From NCBI GenBank assembly GCA_946699065.1, contig CAMPDV010001491.1, positions 51,701 to 115,700 on the forward strand: 64,000 bases of DNA, in the 5' to 3' direction. The notes under the pieces were generated by a model. That model was given only the letters and a program-made list of their open reading frames with translations, searched no databases and was not told the origin of the DNA. The position numbers were made by a program, and so were the translations under genes. Origin of the DNA: Loxodes magnus (taxonomy: Eukaryota; Ciliophora; Karyorelictea; Loxodida; Loxodidae). Each line of letters starts with the position of its first letter. Position 1 is the first letter of the stretch. Below are positions 11,501 through 58,108 of the stretch, in pieces.

Positions 11501-11501
11501 A

Positions 11502-26603: not shown

Positions 26604-27686
26604 ATGGTGAAAAAAGAAACGGAGAAAAAAGAAAAGCAATTTACTAAAAAAATTTTTTTAAGAAAACTCTTAAGAGCGAGAAACCACATTTTAGGGAAAA
26701 TATCTCTACTTCATTTTAAGTATGAAATTCTGCCCAACTTATGCTACTAAAAGTTAATAAATAAGATCAGCTACGACCAAAGTAAAGGTATTTCTTTAAT
26801 ATTTTTTAGACTAAGTCATTAATATCACTTCACCTGCTTTCTCTGTCGCCATAACAAGTGACTTGAATTGAATAGCAACAGGTTCTGGATATCCTGAATA
26901 TTCGATAAAGATCTGAAATTTCCAGACAGGTGCTCTCCAAAGAACTTTGTCGGAACATACTGATTACATTTACTCGGTAGTAATCTCCTTGATTCTAAAT
27001 ATATTATATCAGGATCTTACGATAACACAATCAAAATCTGAAATTTATAGACTGGTTCTCTCATAAGAACCATAACAGGGCATACTTCTCCTATTACCTC
27101 GGTAATAATCTCCCCAGATTCTAACTATATAGTATCAGGATCTGGAGATAAAACCATAAAGGTCTGAAATTTTCACAATGGTGATCTCATAAGAATTTTG
27201 TCGGGACATACTGATTGAGTTAACTCGGTAGTAATCTCCTATGACTCTAGATATATTATATCGGGATCTAAAGATACAACTATAAAGATCTGGGATTTCT
27301 AGACTGGTCAGGTTGTGCGAACTCTTACTGGGCATTCAAACTTAATTTGATCTGTAATAGTGTCTAAGGATAATAGGTATATAATATCTGGTTCTTATGA
27401 CAGGACTATTAAGATATGGGACTTCTCTTCTGGTTAGTGTATTCGTACTCTTTTAGGCCATACAGATGCTGTACGTTGTATTCAGTTAAGTGTTGATTCA
27501 AGTGTTATCTTTTCTGGATCTTTTGACAGAACAATCAAGATCTGGAACTTTGATAAGGGTGAGTGTATATAGACTTTGCAAGGGCATACATATTATATAC
27601 TTTCTATAGCATTGAGTGTTGATAATAGTTTGTTGGTATCGGGAGGATATGACAAGACGATTAGAAAGTGGAGGATTTCGAGTTGA
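26604..27686 (+). pseudogene. seven-blade WD40 protein, copy 1 (left arm)
   Basis: Exon 1 (26604-26787) encodes a basic leader (FLRKLLRARNHILGKISLL). A 22-nt intron (26788-26809, GTATTT...TTTTTAG) follows, and exon 2 encodes seven WD40 repeats, enough for one beta-propeller. Signature pieces are SGSYDRTIKIWDFSSGQ, LLGHTDAVRCIQLSVD and SGGYDKTIRKWRISS. The family acts as a protein-binding scaffold; the partner here is unknown. The conserved WD-position codon is TGA in blades 1-3 and TGG in blades 4-7. A 1-nt deletion near 26990 breaks the frame in blade 2. The TGA at 27684-27686 is the presumed stop, conserved in all three copies. The gene sits about 0.5 kb upstream of the TTA array that precedes LINE-related sequence. 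Confidence 0.75.
26788..26809 (+). other. 22-nt mini-intron in the WD40 gene
   Basis: GT...TTTTTAG. The homologous segment is 21 nt at 46141-46161 and 22 nt at 63575-63596. Removal joins exon 1 to the first WD40 repeat in frame in both the 21- and 22-nt versions, which favours splicing over coding use. Confidence 0.65.
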
Positions 27687-28184
27687 GTAACTTGCTATTT
27701 GACTTAATTAAATTTTACGATTAAATATAAGATATTGATAATGCATTTAAATGAATGTTTAATGATAACTATGTTCTTTGTTATATGAAGTTTTTGTTTT
27801 TTATTTTTTTATTAAAAGGTTGTATATTCTAAAATATTATTGGTTTAAAAAAAAGGTTGAGTAATATAGGTTATTGAAATTATTGAGGTATGTGATTTAA
27901 AGTCGTAACGTTTCAAAATATTAAAAATATAATTTTGGTAAATGAAGACGTATAATAAGTTTAAGTTTAATTTTATGTTATAAAATCTTATAGATTTATT
28001 TTTAGATTTTGTAAAAATTTCAAGTTAATTATAAATTTACATTTTTTTGTGGAGAAGTTAAAATATTATTTATAAGGTTAAAGTTAGTTTATAATCTTGA
28101 TTATTAATTAAAAAATTTAATTAAGTATTTTATTTTATTTTAAATTAAATTTTGTTTTTTTATTATTTATTTTTTATGATTGAT

Positions 28185-28255
28185 ATTTATTAATTATTAT
28201 TAATTATTATTAATTATTATTATTTATTATTATTTATTATTATTTATTATTATTA
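28185..28255 (+). repeat. TTA-rich short tandem array
   Basis: Units of TTATTAATTA. Matching arrays are at 44680-44770, 48060-48175 and 62140-62215, each marking the junction between WD40-side sequence and LINE-side sequence. Confidence 0.8.
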
Positions 28256-28257
28256 TA

Positions 28258-29010
28258 AAATTTGTAATTTTATGTTTAATATTTTTCGTTTCTGATTGGG
28301 AAAAAATTTTCTGATGGTAAATTTTTTATTTATCTTTCAGGTTTAGAGCATGAATTTCATGGAAATAAAAAATTTGTTTTTTGCTCAGCTTTTACACTAC
28401 CAAAGATTTCTGGGACGGAATAAATTTAATTATTTCGGGATAAAAATTCTGAATAGTAATAAATTTTTTTATTTCGGGATGAAAAAAGTTAAAAAGGAAT
28501 AAAATTTCAAAAGAAATTCCAAATATAAAAGATTTTGGAAAAAAATAGGAATTTAAAAAATTTGTTAGTATAATTAGAATTTGTAAATCTTTTTTGCTAA
28601 AATGGTATTTTGTAAAAATAAATAAACTTATTTTTGTTTTAAGGAAAAATTTTTGATTTGAAAAATTTTAACACATTTTTTGTTGTTTTTTTTCAAGAAA
28701 AAAAATTTGATAAGTTTAATTTTTTTGAAATGATAAAAAGCAAAAGTTATTGTTTATGTTTTTGATAAAAATGCATTTTTTTACTTGAAATTAAAATTTT
28801 TTAAATTTGAATTTCTTTTCAAGTAACTGAAAAAACTAGTGATAAAATTTTTAAATTTTATAAGAATTTACTTAATTGAACATGATCTCAATTAAAAAGG
28901 AGAGAAAAGAAAGTAAATAATGAAATTGTGAACAATTATTTTTTATTTTTTAGCTCTGAGTCTTAAACTACAGAAGATTTTCGGGATGGATAAATTAAAA
29001 AAAAGGGTTA
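28258..29010 (+). repeat. 0.75-kb noncoding repeat, copy 1
   Basis: Begins TTTTCGTTTCTGATTGGG and contains GGTTTAGAGCATGAATTT, TTACACTACCAAAGATTT and two ATTTCGGGAT motifs. It ends with a variant of its own beginning (TAAACTACAGAAGATTTTCGG). Also present at 48180-48910 (same strand) and 61050-62120 (inverted, with an extra 320 bp). No coding potential seen. Its constant place after the TTA array suggests a mobile-element end or control region. Confidence 0.7.
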
Positions 29011-29049
29011 GAGTTTTGATAGATATAAAAATTTTTAACAATATTTTTT

Positions 29050-29340
29050 AAATTAAGATATCAAATATTAAGTTTATGAACTTCTTGACACATTGCTAAA
29101 TAAGTTTTATGAGAATCAACATATACTGACGGGAGATTTCAATGCCCTTTTATAAGGTTTTGTAGACAATCCTGAAAATAATTTGATAATATATATAGAT
29201 TATAAGAATTTCTCCTGCTAAATGTCATTGAAATAATGAATGATAGTAACGTTAATACATGTATACAAAAAAAACTGTATAATTGTGGTGTAATGATTAT
29301 ATCATTATAAACACCATTTTAAAGTAAAAATATGGAAAAT
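29050..29340 (+). pseudogene. stray LINE endonuclease fragment (left arm)
   Basis: With UAR = Gln this reads YENQHILTGDFNALLQGF, the GDFNA motif of AP-like endonucleases of non-LTR retrotransposons, then DNPENNL. It lies upstream of and separate from LINE A, in the same orientation, and is inverted at 60820-61030 in the right arm. It is the remnant of another, 5'- and 3'-truncated LINE insertion. Confidence 0.65.
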
Positions 29341-29529
29341 ACTTAAAATTCACTTGTTTAACTAGTGACTCTTCTTTAATTGATTATTAAGAAGCTGCAA
29401 ACTGATAGATCAAACACAGACAGGTGCATAAAAGCCTCCAAATAAAAGAATTATAGTTGGTACAAATCAAATAAGTAAACATAATAATGGATTTATTTAG
29501 AAAATTATTAAATATCTGTAGTCAAAAAC

Positions 29530-31760
29530 TATAAAATAAATTCTTACACGTTCCACTGAAATCACTTCGAAATTCTCTTCATCGTGGGTATCAATTTTGG
29601 CATCTATTGTAAGAAAAATAAACTTATAGATAGAAAAATAGTTTAAACGCCTAAAATATTACCGCAGAAGACACAAAAAGATCATCCAAAAAATCTTTGA
29701 AAAATTAAGATATTATCTAAGACACTCCGATCTCTTAAGATAAGCTTTCAAATCTGAATTAAATTTAAATAAAAATATCCTTTTACAATATAAAAATGTA
29801 CATAAACTTAAGATTTATTTTTAAATAACAGTAATAAATTAGATTAAATTGAATGTAATAAAAACAGTTAAAAGTAAGACAATAATATTATTTCTGTTAA
29901 TTCAAAGTATCACTATTTATCTGATCTTTAGAATTAAAATAAATAACTATAATAAAATTGTGGCCCGATAAATGCAATTCAAAATTAAGCAATTAATAAT
30001 TCGTTTAATGAAAATTAGATTTTTTTAGGTATAAAAGTACTTAAATAAGATATATAAAGACTAATAGATAAGAACTATTTATTAAATGAAAAATTAGATA
30101 GTACAGAAACAAAATACGAACTAGAAAAATAAACCTTGATAAATAACTAGAATCATCAAAAGCATATTATAAAGCATATATTAATAAAATTAATTAGAAA
30201 TACAAAAAAATAAAAATAGTTACTAAAATTTGCCTTATAATATTATTAGGAAAAGCTATTTAAAAATAATTAAATATTATAACAGATAAAAAATAACCTA
30301 TTAATAATTTTAAAGTAGAAGATTAAACTGAACAATTTCATTAGATAATGTTACTTATAAATAATATCTTTCTTTAGTAAAACATAATTAATAACTACTT
30401 TAGAACATTTTTCAATAAAAATTTGAGAGGAATTAGTTTTCATTTTAATCCAAAGAGTAAATAATAGTTCAAGAATAATCAGAATAAACAACTTATGTTA
30501 ATTCTAAAGAGATAACTGTTTAAACAGATTTTGTAATAAAATGTATTAAATAAAGAACTTAAACTAGCAATAGAGTTTTTATAAATTAAGAAGCGTAAAC
30601 GCAATAGATAAATTAGAAATGGATCAAACATAAACTGAAAAATAATTATTATATTCAAAATAGGAATATTTAAAATAATAAATTTCATTCTACTAATAGT
30701 AATTTTCTGGATAACAACACATTTGGTAACTATTTTAAGAAGTTTGATAATAAAAACTAATATTGAACTTGATTTAAACTATATTTTTAATTATAATTAA
30801 TAACTGAAATCTTAAAATTAAAAAGTAACTGATTAAGTATAAATATTATAAAGATAACTTTAAATTTTGAAATTTGAATGAGAAAAGAAATATTCTTAGA
30901 AATCGGATTTATGTAATAATCTTTAATAGAATCTATAACCTAAAGAATTGGATTATTAAAGCATATTGGGTTCGTTACATTTGTAAAAAAATAAGTATAT
31001 CCAAGAAGTTAAAGATGCTTTCACATAAACAAAAATACCTTAACTATAGAATGATTACACACAGGTTGAAATTTATTCCAGTGATTAAAAAATTCAAACA
31101 ATTATTTTTACTTTAGATACGGCTACTGGAACAGACCTACTACATTTAGATTAAATTTCCTAGTGCGAATTTATTTATTCTAAATACATAAAATTGTAGA
31201 AATAATATGATAAACTAATCAATTAAATCAAAGCTTTTGATAAAGTTGCATCAGAAAAATGTATTTTAATGGAAAATCTGGAATAGAGCCAAATTTTAAA
31301 GTAGTAAATTTCTTACAATTTAACATTTCTATCCATAAAATTCTGTGAATAATCTTTTTAGATTTTCAACAACTCTCATTCATAAAATCTAAAATAGGAT
31401 ACTCAAGCAAATTCTTTGGAATAAGATTCTATAAATTAATTAAAGAGAAAATGTCCAGATCCATATTTTCCATCTACTAAATAACATATCAATAAAATGG
31501 AAGAAAATTAGTCTTTCATAAAAAATTACAATGTTAATTCAAAATAGCTAAGAGACTTTATGTTATCTAACTTCTGAAGAAGAACTAATTTCTAAACTAT
31601 AATTTAAAACAGATACGTTGTACTTGACTAAGAACTTGATAAAGGATAGATTGACAGTCAAGTAGTTAAAATTAACATTGATAAGAGATTATTAAAGATA
31701 TATAGCAGAAAATATCTCTATATTATAATTTAATTTCATGACTAAAATAAATAACATTAA
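29530..31760 (+). pseudogene. LINE A ORF1 region
   Basis: The start reads STEITSKFSSSWVSILAS, matching VKITSKFPKKWKLAI at the same place upstream of LINE C, so the region is ORF1 of the same family. A basic, Lys/Ile-rich sequence follows (FKRLKYYRRRHKKIIQKIF) with long TGA-free stretches and coiled-coil character. No zinc knuckle was seen. Short standard-code frames here (for example 30479-30688 and 30874-31116) are shadows or fragments of this region. ORF1 proteins bind LINE RNA; that role is inferred from position. Confidence 0.45.
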
Positions 31761-31794
31761 AAAAATAGGTTCATCTTGAAATGAGGGGACAAAA

Positions 31795-33740
31795 AAAGAA
31801 ATTTTAATTTATGAACCTGGGTGGAAAGGAGGTTCTTAACTAAATCAACAAGGAAAACAAATTATTTTAGATCAAGATAATCACTAAAAAAGAAGTAGCA
31901 TCAATCAAATTAAGATTGGATATGTCAACATAAATGGATTAGCAAGTAAACTATATAAAATAGAAGAATTCATAAGAGGAAATAGTATTGACATTTTTTC
32001 AATTAATGAAACTTGATAAAAACAAGATTTCCATCCAATATTAATATAAGGTTATAGGACTTATTACAAAAATTCAGGAAAAGGAGGAGGTGTATATCTA
32101 GTTATTAAAGAAGAACTCACTAGCACTGAAGAAACTAATATAATTGATGTATCCTAGAATCGATTTATCATAGCCAAACTAGATAATATATTTATTACGT
32201 CCAGTTACATGCCAGATAATAGCGAAAATGAGAACATAAAAGACCAAGCATATGACTATATAAATTTGCTACTTAATCAATTCCCAAATAACCACATATT
32301 CAAATGGGAGATTTCAATGCTCCCCTATAAGATTATGGAGATAATCCTAATAATGACTATGATAATACAAACAGATTCTAGGTATTTCTTATTCAGAAGT
32401 ATCTTGAAATAGTAAATAATATGAACAGCAACACTTGCATACATAAAGGAGCATATTTTATGTATTGCAATGACTATTGTAATAAACAATCACCTGAATA
32501 TTAATCAATTTGAAAACTTCTAGGTTCATTATAACTAACTATTTACTGATCACATACCAATTACGGTAAATTTTCTCTTCAACACAATTCTCTATTAGGA
32601 CATAACTACCTAAAGAAAATATAAAATTAGCAGGCTACAAGACCCTATTGACAGATAAAAATATTAAGAATCTTTTTTTGAAACTTATAATGAATTTATT
32701 TAATCTGATAGGAATAATTTAGAGGATTAATACTAATGTATTAAACGCAATATATAATATAATGCAGATGTAATATTAGGTTCATTTATTCCAGACCCTA
32801 ACTATAATAAACTTACAAAAGACCTCATAATGAAGTATATTGAAGTTAAAAGAGTTAATCAAGTATATAAAGAAACTCACGCGTAGTTTGGAAGAATTAA
32901 TTAATAAGTAATTCCCTTTTTAAGAACAATTGGTAAGAAGGATATTAATATAGAGATTAAGTAACAAGACTATCTGAATGTTACGAAATAGATATTAATA
33001 ATTAGGAATATAATAGTAGCTTTAATACTTTTACAAAATATATTAAAAGTAAGATTCAACATTAATTTTATGAAGTAACTATTAAAAGACTAAAAAGGAT
33101 GTCCACTACAAAGTTATTTATAGAATAATTAGAATAATTAGAATAATAATAATAATTCCCGTAAATTACCTATCCAAAACTAAATAAATAGTATCGAAAA
33201 GAAATAATTAGTATATACAAACTCAGAACCTAAAGTTACAACTTTCGCAAGAATCTTTAAGACAGAAATTATTTAGTTGAAAATTCTCATTGTATGTGTG
33301 GAGATTTGATTAATTTGAACATATTCTGGAATGCGATTGCTATATAGATATGCGAGGATGGTTAAATAGCAAAAATTGGAAAATGCGACATTAGAAAATT
33401 AATAACATATGACCAAATTATATCAATTAATTTCCAAAAAAAAAATTAGAATACATTGATCTGCAACTTAAAATTTTCCATAGGATGTTACTTAAAAGGA
33501 GATTAGAATTATTCGAATTAGAAAAAACTTATAATAAGAAAGTTCTGAGACTAAGGGTAAAGAAGCGAAAGAGCAAGATAAAGATGAAGAGAATAATGAA
33601 AATTAGGAAGGAAAAGAACTAGAAGAAAAAGATGAGCAAGTGGAAGATTAGAATAAATAAACTGATGAAGAAGATAATATAGCTGAAGAAGAAGATGAAA
33701 TAGAAAGTGTTTGAGTTGAAAAACTTTAAAAAAACATTAT
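31795..33740 (+). pseudogene. LINE A ORF2 remnant: endonuclease plus zinc finger, no RT
   Basis: AP-type endonuclease motifs in order: IGYVNINGLASKL, DIFSINET-TGA-Q (catalytic-region ETW), GKGGGVYLVIKEE, ITSSYMPDN, and GDFNAPL near 32313-32333 after a small frameshift. The C-terminal finger is HCMCGD (33294) then EHILECDCYID in a shifted frame, a CXCX7-8HX3C pattern. It ends in an acidic tail (AEEEDEIESV). TGA falls at the Trp of ETW. The RT domain is absent, so it is not autonomous. Confidence 0.75.
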
Positions 33741-34078
33741 AACATCTTAAATTGAAGGAAGTAATTCCAACAATGAAAAGATGTATCAAGACTCTTTTAG
33801 TTAAATTTAAATTTAAGAACAACATGTGTAAGAGAAAGATTTAGATTAGCTATCTATAAATCATTAAATATTGCACTAGTGTTGGGAATAATAGTTGATT
33901 TTTACCTTTCATTATAATATCAGCAATGATAGCTCCAATTTAGCAAAAATAGTTCTACTTAGTAAAAAGATAAAAATTACACCATTTAATATTTATTCTC
34001 AAAATCAGAGCAAAGAAATAAATCTGAAGTAAGATATCTATTTATTAAAAATTAAGAGTTGTCAAGATAATCAAAACC

Positions 34079-34930
34079 TTGCTTACTTATGAATATTTGC
34101 AAATAGATATTATAATTGATTATTTCAAAGAGTTTGATAAACATAACAATATTTAAATTAAAAAAATTTATTCTAAGAATGCCTTTAAAGAAATGCAGTC
34201 ATGTAAACAGTAAAATGATTTGCTAAATTAATAAAAGATACATAAAAAATTTTCTCTTTAATAATATACGCTAAATACAATAGACATCTAATTTAAGAAA
34301 CTATTTCAATCTAAAAAATAATTACTTATACTTATAATTTTAAATATGAACGGAATCATTGATATATCAAAACTCAATTCAATAAACTTTGCTTAAGTAG
34401 ATAGGAATTTGATACATTTGAGCGCATTTTCAAACGTAATCTTTTTTACAGATATTTTAAAAATTTTTAATAAACTTAAAATAATTAATGAAAATAGTGT
34501 AAAAAACTTGTTTTATATGGCTAAAATTATATTAATAAATATTTTACAAAAGATAAGATAATTAAATTAGATAAGTACATAAAAATATTTCATCAATAAT
34601 ATTTAGAAGATCATTAAAGATTATTAAGAACTAGAGTGAAGAGAAAAATAGATTATATTAAAAACCCATAAACAGATTTAATGAACTAAAAAATTCTTTA
34701 TCAAGATAGAGTGAAAGAGAACCATGAATGAAATATATAAACTTTTAAATTTAGCGTAAAAGAAGTAAGAATTTCAGTTTTAAAGGAAGTGTGAAGAGCT
34801 TTGAGATAAAGAGTAAAAGAAGTTTGAGTAAGTAAAAGTTAATTTAGCACATGGTTAAATGCCAATAATTACACAATTATGTCTCAATATTTAAAATATT
34901 TAAACTCTTATAGTTTATTATTAAGACTTA
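34079..34930 (+). pseudogene. unknown ORF between LINE A and LINE B (left arm)
   Basis: A long UAR = Gln frame with few TGA: TYEYLQIDIIIDYFKEF, FKKLFQSKKQLLILIILN, VKNLFYMAKIILINILQK. Near 34635 the left copy has one extra T relative to the right arm, which instead reads ELEEEKNRLYQKPINRF, so the right-arm frame is probably the original. Family unknown. It may be the 3' part of a retroelement or an unrelated gene caught in the duplication. Confidence 0.35.
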
Positions 34931-34934
34931 TTAT

Positions 34935-36040
34935 TTAAACTTTTAAATAGTGAATAGGATTTTTTAATTATTAATTTTAAAAAACTAAAATTAATTATTT
35001 TAATAATTATCATTTATTTTATTATTTTAAGCTAAAATATGGGAATTTTCTAATATAATTGTTGATATATATATAAATAATAAAAATGATAGGATAAATA
35101 AAAGTTAATCTTTTAGCATTTATAATTTTAAAGGATAGTTTTAGTTAAAATATATTTTTAAATAAAAGAAATAAAGTAATTTAATTATAGTTAAATATTT
35201 TATGCAAGTATAATTTTCTTATTATTAGCAAATTAATAATAATGGCTTATATTTAAATTTCTTTAACTGACAATGATAAAATAGATAATTTAACATAATT
35301 ATAATTATAATAAGTTTAATTAAATTGATATATAAATTAATAGTTTATAATTAACTTTAAAATATAATAAAAGTTAGTTAAGATTATTATTATAATTACT
35401 TATATTACTTAGAACTAAAAATTGTACATTCATTAAATTTATAATTATTGATAATTCTTTATTAATTTTATTTTATACAGTTATCTCTAAAGATATGTTT
35501 AACTATATTTACTTTTTAATTCACTAAATTATTGTTTTAATTATTGTAGACATTAATTATCAAATGAGAATTTTTATATTTTTACAATCTAGTAATCAAA
35601 TACTTATTGTTAACCAATTATTTAAAACTCATATCAAAATTATGAAAAGCATCCTCTTTATTATTTTTAAATTGATAAAAGATAATTAATTCTAGCTAAG
35701 CATATAATTATTTAATTATTTTAGATAATATTTTTAATATTAATATCTTACTATTATAAAGGACTATTTTAAACTATATTTTGCTATCATTTAGAATTTT
35801 ATATTATTAAAGCAATAAAGTTAAAATTTCCTTTAGTTTATTTTGAACTTAAATTCCTTTAAAATATTTCTTCCTTTATATTCTTCATGTTTTATTAATT
35901 ATAGTTAAATAAAGAATTCTTTAAATGGCTTCATTAGCAATTTAAATAGTTTTTAGAATTTAAATTTTAATATTTATTTATAAAAATAAATGGTATAAAT
36001 TAAAGCTATTTAGTAATAATATATCACTTTAATAAAAGAG
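34935..36040. other. AT-rich spacer between converging LINE A and LINE B
   Basis: Over 80% AT and noncoding by eye. Near-identical in inverted form at 53290-54400. Confidence 0.5.
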
Positions 36041-36059
36041 TTATTGTATGAAACTGTTT

Positions 36060-38955
36060 ATTTAAATTTTAAATTAAATAATTTTTTGACATCTATAACT
36101 GCATGAATTGCTTCCTTTATTTATAGACATTAGTAAATGTTTTTAATGCTTTTTAATTATAATCTTAATCTCATCAATTTTTAATTACTCTTGTTATAAT
36201 CTCTCTTTTATGTCTTCCTTTTTTACTTTTTCCATTTCTAATAATTCTAATATTCTTGATATAAGTTTCTTATACTTTTATTTATAAATCTAAATATCCA
36301 AAATAAGACTTTGGAGAGAAGTTAATGAGTCCTTAATCATATATTATAAAGCGCTTAAGTCATAATTCCCAATCTTTTACGATAGTCAATCTCTTATATT
36401 GGAATAGTATATGCATTTAAAAATGTGCTAAAATGTACCATACTCTCCACACATACAGTAGGGATTATCAATAGGATAATGAAGATCTTAAAGATCTTTT
36501 CGAAAATTATAAGATTGGGTTCTAAGTTTATATATACTGATAATTTCTTGTCTAAATTATTTGTTCAACTTAGTGTAAGTAATTACTAGAAATTGGTTAA
36601 GTTAAGATTACTTAACTGCTTAGTATATATTTTAGCTTTTTTCATTCTCTTAAATTTTTGAGTAGCTGTATTATAGAAATATTATTGTATTTTGTCTCTT
36701 ATATATTTAATAAAAATTTTTTAATTTGTACTAATCTTGGAATTCTACAGTGCGATACTATAGAGGTCTGATAATTGGTAAACTTTATCATAGCATTGAA
36801 ATCCTTTTTTTCAGTTGGTAATGAAAAGAGAGCCTATTGTCGATGTTGGAAAATCAATATTTTCTTATTTCATTTTATAATAGAGTTTAAAAAACTTTAT
36901 TGCCATAATGTGTTTGAAAGATAACCAGTTTAAATCTATGAAGCATAACTTATTAATGTTGAAGTTGCTAATTAAAGTGCTTTTCTTTAAATCATTCTCA
37001 TACTTGATTCAATTCTATTCAAAACTCATGTTTTTCCTTTCTGAATACACCATGGTACTAGCTTTCCTCCATATTCTGCTTTAGATAGTGTAAAAAATCT
37101 GCATAAAGTTTTAAAATGTCGAGGAGTCACATTCTTATATCTCATAAGTTAAAAAACAGCTTTTTCATTGCAACTATATACTTGATCGCGACTTCTCTGC
37201 AATGAGAATTAAAATTCTTCTTCTAATTTAGCATTACATTTAAACATGTTACTTTTTCCTTTTAAATAATTAGTTAATTATCTAATCATAAATTTAAATT
37301 TTATTATTTATAATGTTTCTTTAAAATTTAGATGCATTCAGATTTGATACCATTGATCTTTAAGTGCGTTTATGTAAAATGCTTACTTGTTTCATTTATT
37401 AACTCCTTCATCTACTTTGTAGTTTTGGAAAGAAAAATCAAATCATCTGCTCATCATCTACATGCGAAGCTAATACTCCAACCCTGGCATTTGAATCCTA
37501 ATTAGGTACTTTTACTTTCCAAATATCTAATTACTACGTCATATGGTCCATGTGACTTTTCTTACATAACTCTATTGTTGTATTATAATGTTCTGATGTT
37601 CTTTCCTCTATTTTAAATGAAGAATTTAGGTTTTTGTAAAACAAATCTAAGGTTTTTATTAGTCCAAATGGTAGTTTAACTCTCTTAAATTAATTTTAAA
37701 AAAGTCTTCTTTCTATTGAGTCAAACATTTTTTCAACATCTATCAGTTTTGCTATCAATTTAGTCTTATCTTTAGCACGTTTCCGATAGTTATCAATTAT
37801 TTGTTTTATTATTCAAATTTATTTAGTTTTTTATCTGATTTTTATAAATCCTATTTATGAAGAACGAATCAAATTTCTCTAATAAATCAGATTGTATAGT
37901 CTTTTTGTTAAAGCTTTATCATATAGTTTTAGAATAGTATTAATAAGAGAAATAGGTTGTCAGTTTTTCCAGTCATCTTTATTTCCTTTTTTAAATATTG
38001 GAATTACCGACAATGTATTTAATTCCTAAGGGATTCTTCCAAATCTTAACATATTATTCAAAAAAGAGTGAAAAATTATTAACAAATATTATCCACCATA
38101 TTTCAGAAGTTCACTTTTTATTCTGTCTGGACCAGCTGCTTTTCCATTCGTAATTTCAATTATAATTTCTTGTATTTATTGTATGGCAAAAAGACAAAAT
38201 CCTTATAAATATGAGAGTTGATAATCTTTAATTTCTTAAATACTATCTTATATTTTATCTATTTTTTAATTACTAAGATTTATTTATTATTTAGTTAGAT
38301 TAGAATGTTTGTTAAAAATGCAATTCTTCCATTAATCAATGGATTTATTTTTGATTTCTTAATTAAAGTTCATTTAATTTATTTTTTAGGCTTTTTAATT
38401 TTCTTAGTAAGTGAAAATATTTCTTTAGCATCTCCATTTAGAAGTAAAAGTTTCTTTTTTGCTTTATTTTTTTACAAATTAGACTTGAAGTCATTCAAAA
38501 TGTCGTTTCACTTTTTCATGAAGATTAGTTATTTATTTATTTATTCTTCCAGATATTATGTGTGCTTCTTTATATACTGAGTTAGCCCTTTTAGACCTAC
38601 ATTTTCTTAGTAAAATCTTGAGGAAATTTGCTATAACTTGAGTCTGGAATAAAGGATCCTAATGTTTAACCAGCATTGTATTAGATGTTATTTTTGATAA
38701 ATTCATATTAAACTTCAAGAATCTATATCTACCTAAAAGAATTCTAGATAAGTCTGTAGAAAATATTCTAAATATTTTTGACGATATATTGCAACTTATA
38801 ACCTATTTATTTTATATTTCCTCAAATTCTTGCACATTTTCAATTAATCTCACATAAAATTAAGTTTTGTTTGTAAATCAATTTGCAGAAAAAATTTTCT
38901 TTTTAAGCTATAATATCATATTATTACTGTTTATCTTATAAAAGAATTGTTTTAA
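36060..38955 (-). mobile_element. LINE B, 5'-truncated, left-arm copy
   Basis: Inverted copy of 50450-53240. On the minus strand it holds the pre-RT linker, RT motifs and C-terminal zinc finger. The palm segment reads ACR-TGA-TGA-ADDL (37443-37466), so both residues before ADD are TGA; LINE C has TGA-TGG there. It abuts LINE C (same strand) at about 38.96 kb, so two LINE insertions lie head to tail. Confidence 0.75.
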
Positions 38956-39002
38956 ACTTAAACTAAACTAAAATAGTCTGGTGACATCTTTAATTGTTAG
39001 AA

Positions 39003-44657: not shown

Positions 44658-44689
44658 TTTTATTAAAATTTTATAATAAAATAAATAAT

Positions 44690-47650
44690 AAATAATAATT
44701 AATACCAATTAAAAATAATAATAATAATTAATAATAATTAATAATATTAAATAATAATTAATATTAATAATTAATAAAATTACAAATAATCAAAAATAAA
44801 ATTTAAATTAAAATAATTAATTAAAATTTTTAATTAATAATCAAGATTATATACTAACTTTAACCTTATAAATAATATTTTAACTGCTCCACAAAAATAA
44901 TTTACATTTTTACTTAACTTTAAATTTTTACAAAATCTAAAAATAAATATATAAAATTTTATAGAATAAAATTAAACTTAAACTTATTAACCGACTTCAT
45001 TTAACAAAATTATATTTAAAATATTTTTAAACATTACCACTTTAAATCAACATACCTCACTAATTTCTATAACCTATATTACTCAACCTTTTTATAAGCC
45101 AAGAATATTTAAGAATATAACAAATTTTAAATAAATATATAAAGCAAACACTTCATATAACAAAAAGCATTATTACCATTAAACATTCATTTAAATGCAT
45201 TACCAATATCTTATATCTTTAATCGTAAAATTAAATTAAGTCAAATAGCAAGTTACTCAACTCGAAACCCTCCATTTTCTTATCGTCTTGTCCTGTCCTC
45301 CCGATATCAACCATCTATTATCAACACTCAATGCTATAGAATTATATATATGATGTATGCCCTTACAAAGTCTATATACACTTACCCTTATCAAAGCTCC
45401 AGATCTTGATTGTTCTGTCATCAGAACCAGAAAATATTACACTTGAATCAACACTTAACTGAATACTACGTACACCTCTTGCATGACCTTAAAGAGTACG
45501 AATACACTAACCAGAAGAGAAGTCCCATATCTTAATTGTATTGTCCCGAGAACCAGATATTATATACCTATTATTCTTAGACATTATTACCGATGAAACT
45601 CAGCCTGAATGCCCAGTAAGATTTCGTACAAGCTGACCTGTCTAGAAATCCCAAATCTTTATAGTTGTATCAGAAGATCCCGATATAATATATCTAGAGT
45701 CAGGGGAGATTACTACCGATCAAACAGTAGAAGTATGTCCTGTTATAGTTCTTAGGAGAGCACCATTGTGGAAATTTCAGATCTTTATAGTTGTGTCATC
45801 AGATCCTGATACGATATAGGCTAGAGTCAGGGGAGATTACTACCGATAAAACTGTAGAAGTATGTCCTGTTATAGTTCTTTGGAGAGCACCAGTTTACGA
45901 GTTTCAGATCTTTATAGTATTGTCATGAGATGCTGATACGATGTAGTTAGAGCCAAGAGAGATTACTACCGATATAAACTGCATTAGTATGTCCTGTTAT
46001 AGTTCTTTGGAGAGCACCTGTCTGGAAATTCCAGATCTTTATCGAATTTTCAGGATATACTGAACCTGATACAATTCAATTCAGGTCACTTGATATGGCG
46101 ACAGAGAAAACAAGTGAAGAGTGACCAGTGAGGACTTAGTCTAAAAAATATTAAGAAATACCTTTACTTTGGTCATAACTGATCTTTTTTATTAACTTTT
46201 AGTAGCATAAGTTGGGCAGAATTTCATATTTAAAATGAAGTAGAGATACTTATCCTAAAATGTGGTTTCTCGCTCTTAAGAGTTTTCTTAAAAAAATACT
46301 TTTAGTAAATTGCTTTTCTTTTATATCCATTTATTTTTTCTCCATTTTAATTTTTATAACTTACTTCAATAAATATTTAATTAAAATAACTCAATAAATT
46401 TTACTGACTCAATTTCAATACAATTAAACAATTAAATTATTTATTAAGCATACTTATAAGTATCTTATTTCTTAAACATTGATTTTAAAATTCTATTTTT
46501 GTCTTAAAAAGACGATATATTAAACTAATAGTGCACAAGCTTTTACAATTTTAATTATTTTATATCTTTTTACTTTTAAATAAAAGGATAAATTATTATT
46601 TCAAAAGTATTATAATGAAGAATTTCTATCCTTATTATAATAAATTTAATTTGCATTTATTAGTTACAACTTATTTGTGCTTTAAATCAAAAACTCTTAA
46701 TAAGAAAACCTTATTTCTTTATAAACCCTTTTAAATTATAAATAAAATATTACTATTTTTTTAAATCTACTGTTATTAATTATTATTTTTCACTTACATT
46801 TAATCAAAAAAATGATTTATTTAAGTTTTTACTAATTAAATAAAATAAGTTTCTTATTAATTAGTTTGAATAAATATTAAAAAACATCAAATTACTTAAA
46901 ACAAAATTATTTTTAGAATCTATAAGATAAACTCTTTTAATTGCCCCACTTTCTTACTACTATTTAATTAAAGCTTTTTATTTATAAAGGTGTGTCTTAA
47001 AATAATAAAGTAATATAATTAATTTTAATGTTGATTCTAAGTAGTTATATAGATGTAATAAATATAAGTAGTAGAAAGTAAATATTTAAACTAACTATAA
47101 ATGGTGTATCACTAATTTTATCTTACAATAATTAAATAGTAATATTTAATTTTATTATTAAAAATAAGCTTTAATATGTTTAATTATGTCTATTAAATAC
47201 TTAATATTTTATCCTTTTAGCTTTATTAGTTATTAATTAGTTTCTCTTTAATTTATAAAGATATTAGATTAGTTATAATTAATACATTTAGATAACTTTC
47301 TCTTTTTATAGCAAACTAATATTATATTCATTATTTATGTTATTTTGTAATTATCAAATTAATAATACCTAAATTATTCTAGATTATTTAAAGATTAAAA
47401 CTTATTCTATTATTATATACAAATCTAAAAACATAGTTATCACTATTAATACTCTCTTTATTCAAATTAGTTGTTTTATATTAACAAAATTATCAGCTTT
47501 TAAAGAAAGAAAGCATATTTTTAATATCTTCTATTATTATTTTCTGAATTAATAGAAAGAGTAAACTTAACATAATATGTTTCTTTGTAATAAGCATGAG
47601 ATAATATAAGTATTATATTAGCTAATATTAGTTACTTAAAACTAATATTA
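44690..47650 (-). repeat. WD40-bearing block, central copy
   Basis: Inverted relative to 25480-28255. It extends from the TTA array through the WD40 gene to about 1.3 kb beyond its start. More diverged from the two arms than they are from each other. Confidence 0.7.
45257..46345 (-). pseudogene. seven-blade WD40 protein, copy 2 (central)
   Basis: ATG at 46345, mini-intron 46141-46161 (21 nt), presumed TGA stop at 45259-45257. Exon 2 starts QVLTGHSSLVFSVAISSDL, a better GH motif than the other copies. The blade 1 Trp codon is TGG here (KIWNFQTG), whereas the left arm has TGA and the right arm TTG at the same site. The total length minus intron is a multiple of three, but local indels (for example near 45816) disturb single blades. 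Same orientation as LINE C, whose ORF1 begins 600 bp downstream. Confidence 0.75.
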
Positions 47651-48179
47651 ATGTCACAAGAAATTCTAGTCTAGTTGACTTTAGTCATAAGATTAAAAAG
47701 AATACAGTTTTTAGTAGTAATAAGAAAGGATTTAAATAAACATAAAGAAAGTGATAAGCAATATAAATTACAAGAAAAGAGTCTTAAATCTTAAATTTAA
47801 GTTTATTAATTAAAAGATTCAAGACTATCACTTACGAACTAGAATGAAATAGCTTCTAAATTTTAATTTTTTTCTGAATAAAATAAAATAATCAATTACA
47901 ACAAAAATGCATGATTGATATTTAGAAAATATTCAAGCTTTCAAGTAGTAACAGATTGGATATTGAGCATGGGTTTAACAAGTGTTTCTTAAGATAAAAT
48001 AAAATAACAAAAGTTTTATTTTATTTTAATTTAAATTAAATTTTATTTTTGATATTTGTAATTTTATTAATTATTAATATTTATTATTATTTAATATTAT
48101 TAATTATTATTAATTATTTTTAATTGGTATTAATTATTATTTATTATTTATTATTTATTTATTATAAAATTTTAATATT

Positions 48180-48910: not shown

Positions 48911-48914
48911 AAGA

Positions 48915-50440
48915 GATAGAATTTTAAAGATTTGAAAAGTTTTTTAAATTACTTTTAAGAAGTAAAGATAAAAAAATAAATGACAATTTTAGGAAGAAAC
49001 AAAATCAGTAAAAAATTTTCTATAAAAGGGCTTAAAACTACCTTTTTAATAGATATTGCGAATTTTAAAATAACTAATCTAAAAGGAATTTAAAAATCCA
49101 TTTATAAAAATATGATCAATCAAATAGAAAAAATGAGGTACAATGCATCTGTAATAATAAATTTTAGGCCAATTTACAAAGAATATAAAAAAAGTAATTA
49201 ACAAGGATCTAAATAATATATCTAACCTAACTATATAAAATATAGAAACAAAAATTTATTAATCAAGTTTAAAAATATTCTGCTTTATTATAATAATTAG
49301 AAAAATATTAAAAATCGAAAAGATGAGTAAAAGAGTTTTGAAAAGAACTTACTACGGCTAACTATCTATTTTTAGTTTGCGAAAAGATGTTAATTTAAAA
49401 GAGAAAAACGATTTTTTAAGAAAAATTGCTATATTAAATATTTTTTCTCATTTCGTAATATTAAAAGGAATAGCTTTAAAGATAAGCTTTCTGATTTTAA
49501 GCAACTTGAATATATCTACTATGTATATAGAAAATTGATTTTGTTTATTAATCTTAAATTTGAATTTTCTAATGAAGCTATTTTAATAAAGTTGGAAGCT
49601 TTTGAAAAAATTGATTGATTGTTAATTATATAAAAAACATTTGCTAGTAAACTATAAAATAATTTGAATATATGCAAAATAATAAAAATTTTCACTTTTC
49701 TTGTAAATTATCTTATATTCCATCTAAAATAAGAATAAAATTATATTCTAATATTAAATAATACGAATTACCAAAATGAAAGTGTAAATAATTAAGAAAT
49801 CAATATAGTTTTCATTATATCAAAAAGGTTAAAAGAAAAGCTTTAATCTTTTGTATTAATTAAAATAATATACAAAGTGTAATTTAATAACTATTATAAT
49901 TATATCTATAAAAATTGGCAAATATTTCGTACAATATAGAAAGAAACATATATAGCATAATAAAAGCAAGTTTCTACTAAGCCGATAATGCTAATAGTAC
50001 ACAATTTCATAAATAACCTTAAAATTGAGCTATTTTTGCTATATGCTAAATTATTAGACAACTAAATTATAATTATAATTTCACATTCCTTTAATAAATG
50101 TTTGATTTATTATATAATATAGTATTTTTTAGTTTAAGATACTAAATATTCATAAACATAAAAGCATTTAAAGTGGTTTAATAAATAGGATTTTTATAAG
50201 ATTAAGCACTTATTTAAATTTAAAAGATCTTATCAAGAAATTAAATTAAAATGTTTTAATATTTATTTTCTAATTAAATAGTCATTATTTATTATTCATT
50301 TATCTATTTAATTAATATTTTAAATATTGTAATTATATTTATTTATAAAGTATGATATCAACTGAAAATAGCTAGATATTTAAATATAAAAGCTTAATTC
50401 TTAAAACAATTCTTTTATAAGATAAACAGTGATAATATGA
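48915..50440. other. AT-rich spacer, nothing recognised
   Basis: Very AT-rich. A few TGA-poor stretches near 48950-49500 show no recognisable motif. Ends where the right arm of the large inverted duplication begins. Confidence 0.4.
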
Positions 50441-50449
50441 TATTATAGC

Positions 50450-53240
50450 TTAAAAATAAAATTTTTCCTGCAAATTAATTTATAAAACAAAACTTAATTT
50501 TATGTGAGATTAATTGAAAATGTGCAAGAATTCGAGGAAATATAAAATAAATAGGTTATAAGATGCAATAAATCGTCAAAAATATTTAGAATCTTTCCTG
50601 CAAACTTATCTAGAATTCTTTTAGATAGATTAAGATAATCTTGAAGTTAAAATGAATTTATCAAAATAACATCTAATACAATGCTGATAAGCATTAGGAT
50701 CCTTTATTTCAGACAAGTTCTAACAAATTTTCTCCAGATTTTATTAAGAAATATGTAGGCCTAAAAGGGCTAACTCAGTATGTAAGAAGCACAAATTATA
50801 TCTGGAAGAATAAACTAACAAGTTACTAATCTTCATGAAGCAGTGAAACGACTTTGGAAAAACTTCAAGTCTAAATTGTGAAAGTTTAAAAAAATAAAGC
50901 AAAAAAAGAATTTTTTACTTCTAAATGGAAATGCTATGGAAATATTTTCACATACTAAGAAGATAAAAACCCTAAAAAAAGAAACTAAATGAACTTTAAT
51001 TAAGAAATCAAAAATAAATTCATAGATTAATGGAATAATTGTATTTTTAACAAATATTGCAATCTAACTAAATAATAAATAAATCTCAGTAATTAAAAAA
51101 TAGATAAAATATAAGATAGTATTTAAGAAATTAAAGATTATCAACTCTCATATTTATAAGGATTTTATCTTTTTACCATAAAAGAAATACAGGAAATTAT
51201 AAAAGAAATTACGAATGGAAAAACAGCTGTTTCAGCTCGAATAAAAGGTGAACTTCTGAAATATGGTGGATAATATTTGTTAATAATTTTTCACTCTTTT
51301 CTGAATAATATGTTAAGATTGGAAGAATCCCTTAGGAATTAAATTCATTGTCGTTAATTCCAATATTTAAAAAAGGAAATAAAGATGACTGGAAAAACTG
51401 ACAACCTATTTCTCTTATTAATACTATTCTAAAACTATATGATAAAGCTTTAACAAAAAGACTATAAAATCTGATTTATTAGAGAAATTTGATTCACCTA
51501 CATAAATGGGATTTATATAAATTAGATAAACAACTTAATAAATTTGAATAATATAGCAAATAATTGATAACTATCAGAAACGTGCTAAAAGTAAGACTAA
51601 ATTGATAGCAAAACTGATAGATGTTGAAAAAATGTTTGACTCAATAGAAAGAAGACTTTTTTTTAATTAATTTAAGAGAGTTAAACTACCACTTGGAATA
51701 ATTAGAATCGTTTTACAAAAACCTAAATTCTTCATTTAAAATAGATGGAAAGAACATCAGAACATTATAATACAACAATAGAGTTATGTAAGAAAAGTCA
51801 CATGGACCATATGACGTAGTAATTAGATATTTGGAAAGTAAAAGTACCTAATTGGGATTCAAATGCCAGGGTTGGAGTATTAGCTTCGCATGTAGAGGAT
51901 GAGCAGATGATTTGATTTTTCTTTCCAAAACTACAAAGTAGATGAAGGAGTTAATAAATGAAACAAGAAAGCATTTTACATAAACGCACTTAAAGATCAA
52001 TGCTATCAAATCTGAATGTATCTAAATTTTAAAGAAACATTATGAATAATAAAATTTAAATTTATGATTAGATAATTAACTAATTATTTAAAAGGAAAAA
52101 GTAACATGTTTAAATGTAATGCTACATTAGAAGAAGAATTTTAATTCTCATTGCAGAGAAGTCGCGATCAAGTATATAGTTGCAATGAAAAAGCTGTTTT
52201 TTAAACTTATGAGATATAAGAATGTGACTCCTCGACATTTTAAAACTTTATGCAGATTTTTTACACTATCTAAAGCAGAATATGGAGGAAAGCTAGTACC
52301 ATGGTGTATTCAGAAAGGAAAAACATGAGTTTTGAATAGAATTGAATCAAGTATGAGAATGATTTAAAGAAAAGCACTTTAAGTAGCAACTTCAACATTA
52401 ATAAGTTATGCTTCATAGATTTAAACTGGTTATCTTTCAAACACATTATGGCAATAAAGTTTTTTAAACTCTATTATAAAATGAAATAAGAAAGTATTGA
52501 TTTCCAACATCGACAATAGGCTCTCTTTTCATTACCAACTGAAAAAAAGGATTTCAATGCTATGATAAAGTTTACCAATTATCAGACCTCTATAGTATCG
52601 CACTGTAGAATTCCAAGATTAGTACAAATTAAAAAATTTTTACTAAATATATAAGAGACAAAATACAATAATATTTCTATAATACAGCTACTCAAAAATT
52701 TAAGAGAATGAAAAAAGCTAAATTATATACTAAGCAGTTAAGTAATCTTAACTTAACCAATTTCTAAGTAATTACTTACACTAAGTTGAACAAATAATTT
52801 AGACAATAAATTATCAGTATATATAAACTTAGAACCCAATCTTATAATTTTCGAAAAGATCTTTAAGATCTTCATTATCCTATTGATAATCCCTACTGTA
52901 TGTGTGGAGAGTATGGTACATTTTAGCACATTTTTAAATGCATATACTATTCAATATAAGAGATTGACTATCGTAAAAGATTGGGAATTATGACTTAAGC
53001 GCTTTATAATATATGATTAAGGACTCATTAACTTCTCTCCAAAGTCTTATTTGGGATATTTAGATTTATAAATAAAAGTATAAGAAAACTTATATCAAGA
53101 AGATTAGAATTATTAGAAATGGAAAAAGTAAAAAAGGAAGACATAAAAGAGAGACTATAACAAGAGTAATTAAAAATTGATGAGATTAAGATTATAATTA
53201 AAAAGCATTAAAAACATTTACTAATGTCTATAAATAAAGG
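50450..53240 (+). mobile_element. LINE B, 5'-truncated, right-arm copy
   Basis: RT motifs on the plus strand: WKN-TGA-QPISLINTILK near 51390 (Trp of the NWxPISL motif is TGA; LINE C has TGG), KLIDVEKMFDSIERRLFF near 51605-51660, and ACRG-TGA-ADDLIF at 51888-51917. The SSHGPVLALLYYD segment of LINE C is shortened to KSHGPYD, an eight-residue loss in a conserved RT motif. C-terminal finger: CMCGEYGTFQHIFKC at about 52.9 kb. The endonuclease is missing. Not functional as it stands. Confidence 0.75.
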
Positions 53241-53289
53241 AAGCAATTCATGCAGTTATAGATGTCAAAAAATTATTTAATTTAAAATT

Positions 53290-54400
53290 TAAATAAACAG
53301 TTTCATACAATAACTCTTTTATTAAAGTGATATATTATTACTAAATAGCTTTAATTTATACCATTTATTTTTATAAATAAATATTAAAATTTAAATTCTA
53401 AAAACTAATTAAATTGCTAATGAAGCCATTTAAAGAAATCTTTATTTAACTATAATTAATAAAACATAGATAATATAAAGGAAGAAATATCTAAAAGGAA
53501 TTTAAGTTCTAAGTAAGCAAAAGGAAACTTTAGCTTTATTACTTTAATAATATAAAATTCTAAATGATAGCAAAATATAGTTTAAAATAATCCTTTATAA
53601 TAGTAAGATATTAATATTAAAAATACTATCTAAAATAATTAAATAATTATATGCTTAGCTAGAATTAATTATCTTTTATCAATTTAAAATAATAAAGAGG
53701 CTGCTTTTCATAATTTTGATATGAGTTTTAAATAATTGGTTAACAATAAGCATTTGATTACTAGATTGTAAAAAATATAAAAATTCTCATTTAATAATTA
53801 ATGTCTACAATAATTAAAAAATATTTTAGTGAATTAAAAAGTAAATATAGTTAAACATATCTTTAGAGATAACTGTATAAAATAAAATTAATAAAGAATT
53901 ATCAATAATTATAAATTTAATGAATGTAAAATTTTTAGTTCTAAGTAATATAAGTAATTATAATAATAATCTTAACTAACTTTTATTATATTTTAAAGTT
54001 AATTATAAACTATTAATTTATATATCAATTTAATTAAACTTATTATAATTATAATTATGTAAAATTAATTATTTTATCATTGTCAGTTAAAGAAATTTAA
54101 ATATAGGCCATTATTATTAATTTGCTAATAATAAGAAAATTATACTTACATAAAATATTTAACTATAATTAAATTACTTTATTTCTATTTAAAATATATT
54201 TTAACTAAAACTATCCTTTAATATTATAAATGCTAAAGATTAAATTTTATTTATCCTATCATTTTTATTATTTATATATATCAGCAATTATATTAGAAAA
54301 TTCCCATATTTTAGCTTAAAATAATAAAATAAATGATAATTATTAAAATAATTAATTTTAGTTTTTTAAAATTAATAATTAAAAAATCCTATTCACTATT
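53290..54400. other. AT-rich spacer (right arm)
   Basis: Inverted equivalent of 34935-36040. No gene recognised. Confidence 0.45.
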
Positions 54401-55260
54401 TAAAAGTTTAAATAATAAGTCTTAATAATAAACTATAAGAGTTTAAATATTTTAAATATTGAGACATAATTGTGTAATTATTGGCATTTAACCATGTGCT
54501 AAATTAACTTTTACTTACTCAAACTTCTTTTACTCTTTATCTCAAATCTCTTCACACTTCCTTTAAAACTGAAATTCTTACTTCTTTTACGCTAAATTTA
54601 AAAGTTTATATATTTCATTCATGGTTCTCTTTCACTCTATCTTGATAAAGAATTTTTTAGCTCATTAAATCTGTTTATGGGTTTTTAATATAATCTATTT
54701 TTCTCTTCCTCTAGTTCTTAATAATCTTTAATGGTTTTCTAAATATTATTGATGAATTATTTTTATGTTCTTATCTAATTTAATTATCTTATCTTTTGTA
54801 AACTATTTATTAATATAGTTTTAGCCATATAAAACAAGTTTTTTACACTATTTTCTTTAATTATTTTAAGTTTATTAAAAATTTTTAAATATCTGTAAAA
54901 AAGATTACCTTTGAAAATGCGCTCAAATGTATCAAATTCCTATCTACTTAAGCAAAGTTTATTGAATTGAGTTTTGATATATCAATGATTCCGTTCATAT
55001 TTAAAATTGTAAGTATAAGTAATTAGTTTTTAGATTGAAATAGTTTCTTAAATTAGATGTCTATTGTATTTAGCGTATATTATTAAAGAGAAAATTTTTT
55101 ATGTATCTTTTATTAATTTAGCAAATAATTTTACTGTTTACATGACTGCATTCTTTAAAGGCATTCTTAGAATAAATTTTTTTAATTTAAATATTGTTAT
55201 GTTTATCAAACTCTTGAAATAATCAATTATAATATCTATTTGCAAATATTCATAAGTAAG
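54400..55260 (-). pseudogene. unknown ORF between LINE B and LINE A (right arm)
   Basis: Counterpart of 34079-34930. It lacks the extra base of the left copy and continues as ELEEEKNRLYQKPINRF then NELKNSLSRQSEREP and RFEIKSKRSLSK. A charged helix-rich protein of unknown family; the end is not defined because TAA/TAG are sense. Confidence 0.35.
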
Positions 55261-57356
55261 CAAGGTTTTGATTATCTTGACAACTCTTAATTTTTAATAA
55301 ATAGATATCTTACTTCAGATTTATTCTTTGCTCTGATTTTGAGAATAAATATTAAATGGTGTAATTTTTATCTTTTTACTAAGTAGAATTATTTTTGTTA
55401 AATTGGAGCTATCATTGCTGATATTATAATGAAAGGTAAAAATCAACTATTATTCCCAACACTAGTGCAATATTTAATGATTTATAGATAGCTAATCTAA
55501 ATCTTTCTCTTACACATGTTGTTCTTAAATTAACTAAAAAAGTCTTGATACATCTTTTCATTGTTGGAATTACTTCCTTCAATTTAAGATGTTATAATGC
55601 TTTTTAAAAGTTTTTCAACTCAAACACTTTCTACTTCATCTTCTTCTTCAGCTATATTATCTTCGTACCAGTTTATTCATTCTAATCTTCCACTTGCTCA
55701 TCTTTTTCTTCTTATTCTTCTTTTCCTTCCTTATTTTCATTATTCTCTTCATCTTTATCTTGCTCTTTCGCTTCTTTACCCTTAGTCTCAGAACTTTCTT
55801 ATTATAAGTTTTTTCTAATTCGAATAATTCTAATCTCCTTTTAAGTAACATCCTATGGAAAATTTTAAGTTGCAGATCAATGTATTCTAATTTGTTTTTT
55901 GGAAATTTAATTGATATAATTTGGTCATATGTTATTAATTTTCTAATGTCGCATTTTCCAGTTTTTGCTATTTAACCATCCTCGCATATCTATATAGCAA
56001 TCGCATTCCAGAATATGTTCAAATTAATCAAATCTCCACACATAGAATGAGAATTTTCAACTAAATAATTTCTGTCTTAAAGATTCTTGCGAAAGTTGTA
56101 ACTTTAGGTTCTGAGTTTGTATATACTAATTATTTCTTTTCGATACTATTTATTTAGTTTTGGATAGGTAATTTACGGGAATTATTATTATTATTCTAAT
56201 TATTCTATAAATAACTTTGTAGTGGACATCCTTTTTAGTCTTTTAATAGTTACTTCATAAAATTAATGTTGAATCTTACTTTTAATATATTTTGTAAAAG
56301 TATTAAAGCTACTATTATATTCCTAATTATTAATATCTATTTCGTAACATTCAGATAGTCTTGTTACTTAATCTCTATATTAATATCCCTTCTTACCAAT
56401 TGTTCTTAAAAAAGGGAATTACTTATTAATTAATTCTTCCAAACTACGTGTGAGTTTCTTTATATACTTGATTAACTCTTTTAACTTCAATATACTTCAT
56501 TATGAGGTCTTTTGTAAGTTTATTATAGTTAGGGTCTGGAATAAATGAACCTAATATTACATCTGCATTATATTATATATTGCGTTTAATACATGAGTAT
56601 TAATCCTCTAAATTATTCCTATCAGATTAAATAAATTCATTATAAGTTTCAAAAAAAGATTCTTAATATTTTTATCTGTCAATAGAGTCTTGTAGCCTGC
56701 TAATTTTATATTTTCTTTAGGTAGTTATGTCCTAATAGAGAATGTGTTGAAGAGAAAATTTACCGTAATTGGTATGTGATCAGTAAATAGTTAGTTATAA
56801 TGAAACCTAGAAGTTTTCAAATTGATTAATATTCAGGTGATTGTTTATTACAATAGTCATTGCAATACATAAAATATATTCATTTATGTATGCAAGTGTT
56901 GCTGTTCATATTATTTACTATTTCAAGATACTTCTGAATAAGAAATTCCTAGAATCTGTTTGTATTATCATGGTCATTATTAGGATTATCTCCATAATCT
57001 TATAGAGGAGCATTGAAATCTCCCATTAAAATATGTGGGTTATTTGGGAATTGATTAAGTAGCAAATTAATATAGTCATATGCTTGGTCTTTTATGTTCT
57101 CATTTTCGCTTTTATCTGGCATGTAACTGGACGTAATAAATATATTATCTAGTTTGGCTATGATAAATCGATTCTAGGATACATCAATTATATTAGTTTC
57201 TTCAGTACTACTGAGTTCTTCTTTAATAACTAGATATACACCTCCTCCTTTTCCTGAATTTTTGTAATAAGTCCTATAACCTTATATTAATATTGGATGG
57301 AAATCTTGTTTTTATCAAGTTTCATTAATTGAAAAAATGTCAATACTATTTTCTCT

Positions 57357-57362
57357 TATGAA
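57357..57362. repeat. target-site duplication, left
   Basis: TATGAA directly before the insertion; pairs with 58109-58114. Confidence 0.7.
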
Positions 57363-58108
57363 ACATGAGAAAAAATGGAAAACTTCTTGTAAAAAACCTC
57401 TTCTCAAAAGGATTCATCTTACGAGCAATAAAATATATTTTAAGCACTCCAATTGCTGTAATAAGAAAATTTCAACCTCCTAAGAACAGTTCAAGAACTA
57501 GAAAGAAAAATAGAACACCTGATGTACAATTAATAAGAATAAATGAAAAATGAAAATAAATAGACAGGAAACAAAATAGAAGAGCTAGAGAAAAATTCGA
57601 CTAATTCGCAGAACTAACTGAAAGCATATTTTTGCAAAATATATAGGGGAATGATCCTATGGATGTGGAGAAACAGCCTGCAATAAAAGATATTCCATAT
57701 AGGAAAATACTGCGATGCTGATACTGCAAGAGACCAGGACACAAAGTTAGAAACTGCTTCTAATTCCAATAAAAACAGAAAGCAGAAAATTTAAAGCTAT
57801 GAAGAACCATAAGTAAACTATATTGCACTGCGGAAGGAAGAATTATAGAAGAAGATGTACGCAGGGCATGAAATTCTAGAAGACGTGATTATAGCAGGAC
57901 AAAGAAGAAATGAACAAATGCTTGGAATGAAGATTGATTGAAGCGAGATTACGAAAATGGAGAAGGGAGAGCACAGCACAGATAGATATGTGCTTCAAGA
58001 AGAAGACCCAGAAGAAGACTGGAATGGAAATTTTAACAAAAACTATTAAACTTTAAAAAGTGACGAACCTTATTGATAGGTGGGATCACTATAATTAATT
58101 ATTATTAC
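57363..58108 (+). mobile_element. 746-bp insertion carrying zinc-knuckle copy D
   Basis: Absent from the left arm at 31960-31975. Flanked by TATGAA on both sides (57357-57362 and 58109-58114), one copy of which (TTCATA on the left-arm plus strand) is the empty site, so this is a 6-bp target-site duplication. There are no terminal inverted repeats. It starts 2 nt before the ATG and ends 45 nt after the presumed stop, as expected of a 5'-truncated reverse-transcribed copy, though no poly(A) is present. It is later than the arm duplication. Confidence 0.75.
57365..58063 (+). CDS. zinc-knuckle (ORF1/gag-like) protein, family copy D
   Basis: 233 codons including the TGA at 58061, with no frameshift. 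Order: basic N-terminus (TPIAVIRKFQPPKNSSRTRK), family motif NDPMDVEKQP, a perfect CX2CX4HX4C knuckle C-TGA-YCKRPGHKVRNC at 57716-57757, FQQKQKAENLKL, then an Arg/Lys-rich tail (RRRPRRRLEWKF). Six or more internal TGA codons all sit where Trp fits, including the second residue of the knuckle (TGA at 57719-57721), where an aromatic is usual; two other Trp are TGG. With TGA as Trp the protein is complete, and the insertion is recent, which argues against simple decay. Role, by family: single-strand RNA/DNA binding in a retroelement particle. Confidence 0.7.

Follow-up and report, generated by a model that had tools for sequence, protein, structure and literature searches.

Sequence evidence for an ambiguous UGA codon in retroelements and host genes of Loxodes magnus

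Results

Tryptophan codons in the window

In-frame TGA codons at tryptophan (Trp) positions were studied in a stretch of 64,000 nucleotides from the karyorelict ciliate Loxodes magnus (contig CAMPDV010001491.1, positions 51,701 to 115,700 of the forward strand), which is referred to below as the window. The window carries copies of three families of long interspersed nuclear elements (LINE A, LINE B and LINE C), three WD40 arrays and a short insertion (insertion D). A preliminary description of this DNA had proposed that TGA repeatedly stands for Trp in these families, either because UGA was a sense codon with no dedicated stop or because TGG had decayed to TGA. The TGA codons that it named were located by a motif search of all six frames of the window. 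The protein identities it had suggested agree with domain matches, namely Exo_endo_phos_2 in the LINE C endonuclease region (41900-42550; 1.2e-10), RVT_1 in the LINE C reverse transcriptase segment (40241-40747, minus strand; 6.2e-14), WD40 (1.1e-68) and, for the zinc knuckle of insertion D, zf-CCHC (0.00045, narrowly below the curated cut-off).

The Trp of the endonuclease motif ETW is encoded by TGA in all three copies seen: LINE A copy 1 (32008-32016, plus strand, with the TGA at 32014-32016), LINE A copy 2 (57315-57323, minus) and LINE C (42452-42460, minus). A further family from the same genome, family 2 (L081, L082), has TGG at the ETW Trp where LINE C carries TGA. Two other motifs differ between families in the way the preliminary description had reported. 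The Trp of NWxPIS is TGA in both LINE B copies (NWQPIS; copy 1 at 37948-37965, minus, and copy 2 at 51396-51413, plus) and TGG in LINE C (NWIPIS; 40965-40982, minus). Likewise, the Trp of WADD is TGA in LINE B copy 1 (37442-37453, minus) and copy 2 (51900-51911, plus), and TGG in LINE C (40448-40459, minus, with the codon at 40457-40459).

The WD40 arrays show the same alternation. With a strict motif, which may overlook blades, 13 blades were found in the window; the Trp of their WD motif is encoded by TGG in seven and by TGA in six, and by TAG in none. In the array at 26943-27701 (plus; also found by domain search) the codons begin at 27039 and 27165 (TGA) and at 27291, 27417 and 27543 (TGG). 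The two arrays on the minus strand lie at 45300-46042 (TGG at 45401 and 45653; TGA at 45779 and 45906) and at 62800-63479 (TGG at 62840 and 63092; TGA at 63217 and 63343).

Insertion D (57363-58108, plus) is 746 bp long and lies within LINE A copy 2, flanked by a 6-bp target duplication (TTCATA). It has an AT-rich end, and its frame consists of a coiled-coil-like part, judged by eye, and a CCHC knuckle (57713-57757, plus) that reads C-TGA-Y-C, with the TGA at 57719-57721. TGA is thus the second knuckle residue, as described earlier; the window copy is not fully intact, however, since its frame departs from that of fetched relatives just upstream of the knuckle. Insertion D is a high-copy element, with 6,447 first-look candidates in the genome, and the 150 that were scored share 90-95% identity with it. 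Every one of these 150 listed copies holds at least one TGA in a stretch of 59 residues, so TGG is not the sole codon of young copies, a pattern that the preliminary description had named as contrary to a sense UGA. The TGA is the knuckle residue in six of seven fetched copies; the seventh did not fit the search motif. Insertion D looks like a recently spread retroelement with only the first open reading frame (ORF1), for which HAL1 of mammals is presumably a parallel. It also splits the second arm of an inverted duplication of about 10.6 kb (28373-38964 and 50391-61695), the arms of which are 95-96% identical.

Codon usage across copies of LINE C

The LINE C reverse transcriptase was used as a query against the genome assembly (705,730,643 bases, 7,843 contigs). 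It gave 7,465 candidates; 150 were scored and the 30 best-scoring loci were fetched, so the sample is skewed toward copies near that of the window. A further locus and the copy in the window were added to give a codon tally of 32 rows, which stand for 31 distinct places because the window copy is present twice (L034 and winC). The tally spans 956 columns, beyond which the reference copy shifts frame, and is based on a stricter alignment from which cells in poorly aligned stretches were omitted.

Nine columns of LINE C carry TGA in 240 of 248 cells, the others being four TTA, two TAA, one CGA and one TGG; the Trp of VFE-W-T in the window (40376-40378, minus) is a fixed TGA in this codon alignment. 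Six other columns carry TGG in 157 of 170 cells, the remainder consisting of eight TGA, three TTG, one CGG and one AGA, with no TAG. In all other columns only nine TGA were counted among 26,614 codons. The Trp bias that had been noticed by eye in the LINEs is therefore real: TGA is far from equally frequent at non-Trp columns (8/170 at fixed-TGG columns vs 9/26,614 elsewhere; Fisher p = 5e-14), and TAG does not match TGA at Trp columns (0 vs 8; p = 0.008), both p-values being indicative only because the copies are related to one another. When near-identical rows were dropped, the 30 rows left gave eight TGA and no TAG in 161 cells at fixed-TGG columns and eight TGA in 24,837 codons elsewhere, and the outcome was unchanged. 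TGA and TGG also replace one another between families. At five of the nine fixed-TGA columns (293, 619, 726, 768 and 806) a different LINE family of this genome shows TGG, and at three of the six fixed-TGG columns (416, 465 and 592) a different family shows TGA.

Private TGAs occur in LINE copies at columns of Gly, Arg, Cys, Gln and Tyr. One of them, directly ahead of WADD in the window copy of LINE C (40460-40462, minus; codon alignment), was considered as a Trp codon and rejected. Its column is Gly in 29 of 32 rows, the two rows with TGA both represent the copy in the window, and the codon is a private change from GGA to TGA.

Codon usage in host genes

Ordinary host genes were compared with the mobile elements. 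From 136 listed kinase matches, 40 domains were fetched (about every third row); they contain 44 TGA and 53 TGG in 10,224 codons. The Trp column of the kinase motif DxWSxG has 18 TGG, 16 TGA and six Phe codons and no TAG, and two further Trp-bearing columns have 13 TGA with five TGG and five TGA with 16 TGG, with no TAG and a single TAA. Host kinases thus alternate TGA and TGG at Trp columns as the LINEs do.

The ends of host genes were read in histone H4 and in the release factor eRF1. All nine H4 genes found end in YGFGG-TGA. The genome has two eRF1 paralogues; in each of them all four Trp codons are TGG, and both end in TGA. The two paralogues are intact and lie 35 kb apart (G000:C196:19713-20081 and 54613-54981). 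The best match to PF03463 (L001) was rejected as eRF1, as it is Pelota. The kinase Trp columns with TGA, taken together with the H4 and eRF1 genes ending in TGA, indicate that UGA is both Trp and stop.

The reading of UAA and UAG as Gln, stated in the preliminary description, was upheld. The frames of eRF1 and of the kinases are intact with many TAA and TAG codons inside, and column 459 of LINE C, which is CAA in family 2, reads TAA in 28 of 29 rows.

The decoding machinery

A pattern search of both strands of the genome for tRNAs with the anticodon CCA matched 201 places, vs 84 for a backward control. Fifteen of these places were fetched and comprised five tRNA-Trp(CCA) genes, one tRNA-Gly and nine sequences with no tRNA. 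In four of the five sampled tRNA-Trp(CCA) genes (two on contig C67 and two on C148) positions 27 and 43 do not pair, which leaves an anticodon stem of 4 bp; the fifth, on C110, has a 5-bp stem. The mismatched pair differs by array in the sampled genes, being A-C on C67 and T-C on C148. The genes stand in long tandem arrays (G000:C67:482324-491201 and C148:157295-163349) with periods of about 187 and 241 bp.

A search for a tRNA with anticodon UCA and Trp identity had been suggested. The corresponding pattern matched 74 places vs 406 for the backward control, which is no excess, and ARAGORN recognized no tRNA among the 62 distinct strings at these places, a search that covers only genes fitting one pattern. 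The eRF1 has Ala at the position of Ser in the human and mammalian motif NRLSV, a residue that we take to be Ser70 in human numbering.

The 3′ ends of the LINEs

The position of the presumed stop of LINE C was located in 26 of the 30 loci scanned; 24 of them carry TGA there and two carry TAA. Upstream of it, 23 of the 26 copies have 58 in-frame codons without TGA; this count concerns LINE C only and, the copies being related, amounts to few events. The remaining three have TGA-free runs of 51, 40 and 98 codons, in which frames may be shifted. The tail starts about 84 bases past the presumed stop. The location of this stop is weakened by a second in-frame TGA about 12 codons after the first, and either may end the protein. 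The arrangement is compatible with the rule that a UGA near the poly-A tail is a stop.

In LINE C the element ends in a (TTTAAG)n-like tail. A 3′ hairpin (CATCTTTAATTG...CAATTAAAGATG in C) common to families C, A and 2 lies immediately ahead of the element end, at the 3′ ends of L034-L063 and in the window near 39000 (minus), 33770 (plus) and 55560 (minus). Its stem folds in all three families despite base changes, and it is possibly a landing site of the reverse transcriptase.

Other features of the window

A tRNA-Glu(UUC) gene is located at 11429-11501 (plus).

Discussion

The codon counts almost certainly reflect the ambiguous code of NCBI table 27, with UAA and UAG coding for Gln and UGA serving as Trp inside genes and as the sole stop at their end. 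The proposal of a sense Trp codon without a dedicated stop is accordingly right: the kinases and LINE C bear out the Trp reading, although UGA still serves as stop.

Several observations weigh against such a clear picture. Of the 44 TGAs in the kinases, about 8 to 10 sit in columns other than those of Trp, and the nine scattered TGAs of LINE C fall outside Trp columns. Columns 234, 242 and 321 of LINE C, all fixed for TGA, have no Trp in any other tabulated family. In LINE B, column 242 is TAA, column 619 is likewise TAA (TGG in family 2) and column 703 is CGA, and within LINE C itself the fixed-TGA cells include two TAA, four TTA and one CGA.

The strongest of the competing explanations is decay, in which the copies are pseudogenes whose TGG codons have mutated to TGA. 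Several of the copies read contain frameshifts, and the private TGAs noted above at non-Trp columns are of the kind that decay produces. As the main cause it is nevertheless very improbable and is refuted by the tallied counts. A TGA common to nearly all LINE C copies must have been present in the copy that spread, since decay of single copies cannot yield such sharing, and this holds for nine columns. At fixed-TGG columns TGA was gained without any TAG and TGA was rare elsewhere, host kinases show the same usage, and TGA is kept by all of the listed insertion D copies. Decay is thus not the main source of TGA at Trp positions and accounts for scattered private TGAs only. There is scarcely any chance that UGA is a full-time Trp codon and that something else terminates genes, as its heavy internal use in the kinases might suggest; TGA at the end of every H4 and eRF1 gene found already refutes this, and the other two candidates, UAA and UAG, stand for Gln. 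Recoding peculiar to the retroelements, by programmed UGA readthrough or by transfer from an organism with UGA as Trp, would fit the many UGAs of the LINEs but is just as implausible, because host kinases use TGA at 44 of 97 TGA and TGG codons and no special mechanism is needed.

The ambiguous code favored here has been described before. According to the published study, Loxodes magnus uses table 27, with UGA as Trp or, near the poly-A tail, as stop (PMC11441545). Our data are like the karyorelict code (Loxodes, Parduczia) in the Gln reading of UAR, in UGA as Trp in genes and only stop, and perhaps in a UGA-poor stretch before the stop. No difference was found, and the code is here additionally resolved column by column in LINEs. 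Condylostoma magnum, in which all three stops are ambiguous, is alike in its context-dependent UGA and in reading Trp with no UCA tRNA found; unlike it, the stops seen here are UGA only, in 11 of 11 H4 and eRF1 genes. The pattern in the LINE, knuckle and WD40 families is thus real yet ordinary for the organism: in using UGA for Trp they do as its ordinary genes do.

The choice between Trp and stop has been attributed to distance from the poly-A tail (PMC4967479; PMC11441545). It has been reported that short-stem tRNA-Trp(CCA), which occurs in Loxodes too, increases readthrough of UGA in the cases of Blastocrithidia and Condylostoma (PMC13092985), and that in Blastocrithidia such readthrough is associated with Gly at the eRF1 site where Loxodes magnus has Ala (PMC12153298). 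With the support of papers on this and related species, it may be proposed that the tRNA-Trp(CCA) with a short stem would read UGA inside genes, and that eRF1 would win where UGA lies near the poly-A tail.

The families had been described as germline genes. They are not germline-specific, as the assembly searched has the size of the macronuclear assembly (706 Mbp; the micronuclear one is 848 Mbp), and canonical germline-limited sequence was not found in the published study (PMC11441545). A section of that study describes repeat families that are alike in combining RVT_1 and Exo_endo_phos_2 and in having thousands of copies; their names could not be matched to LINE A, B or C, and UGA codons are not counted in that section. 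No printed UGA tally for Loxodes LINEs was found in the parts of the literature searched; supplementary files, outside the search, may hold one.

The modest addition of this work concerns the LINEs, in which Trp-UGAs are internal and, in most LINE C copies scanned, a UGA-free run precedes the presumed stop UGA, which suggests that they obey the host code. If a UGA near the poly-A tail acts as a stop, a LINE RNA that was truncated or received its poly-A tail too soon would have its translation halted at an internal Trp-UGA. It is conceivable, if very unlikely, that the ambiguous code acts in this way as a length check, and perhaps a restraint, on retroelements; if so, a retroelement rich in Trp-UGA might be unable to make truncated active proteins.

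The frames of this genome need UGA to be read as Trp, else intact genes and mobile elements resemble pseudogenes. The LINE families are a natural tally of UGA/UGG exchange at identical sites across numerous copies. They also suggest that mobile elements follow the context-dependent code of their host.

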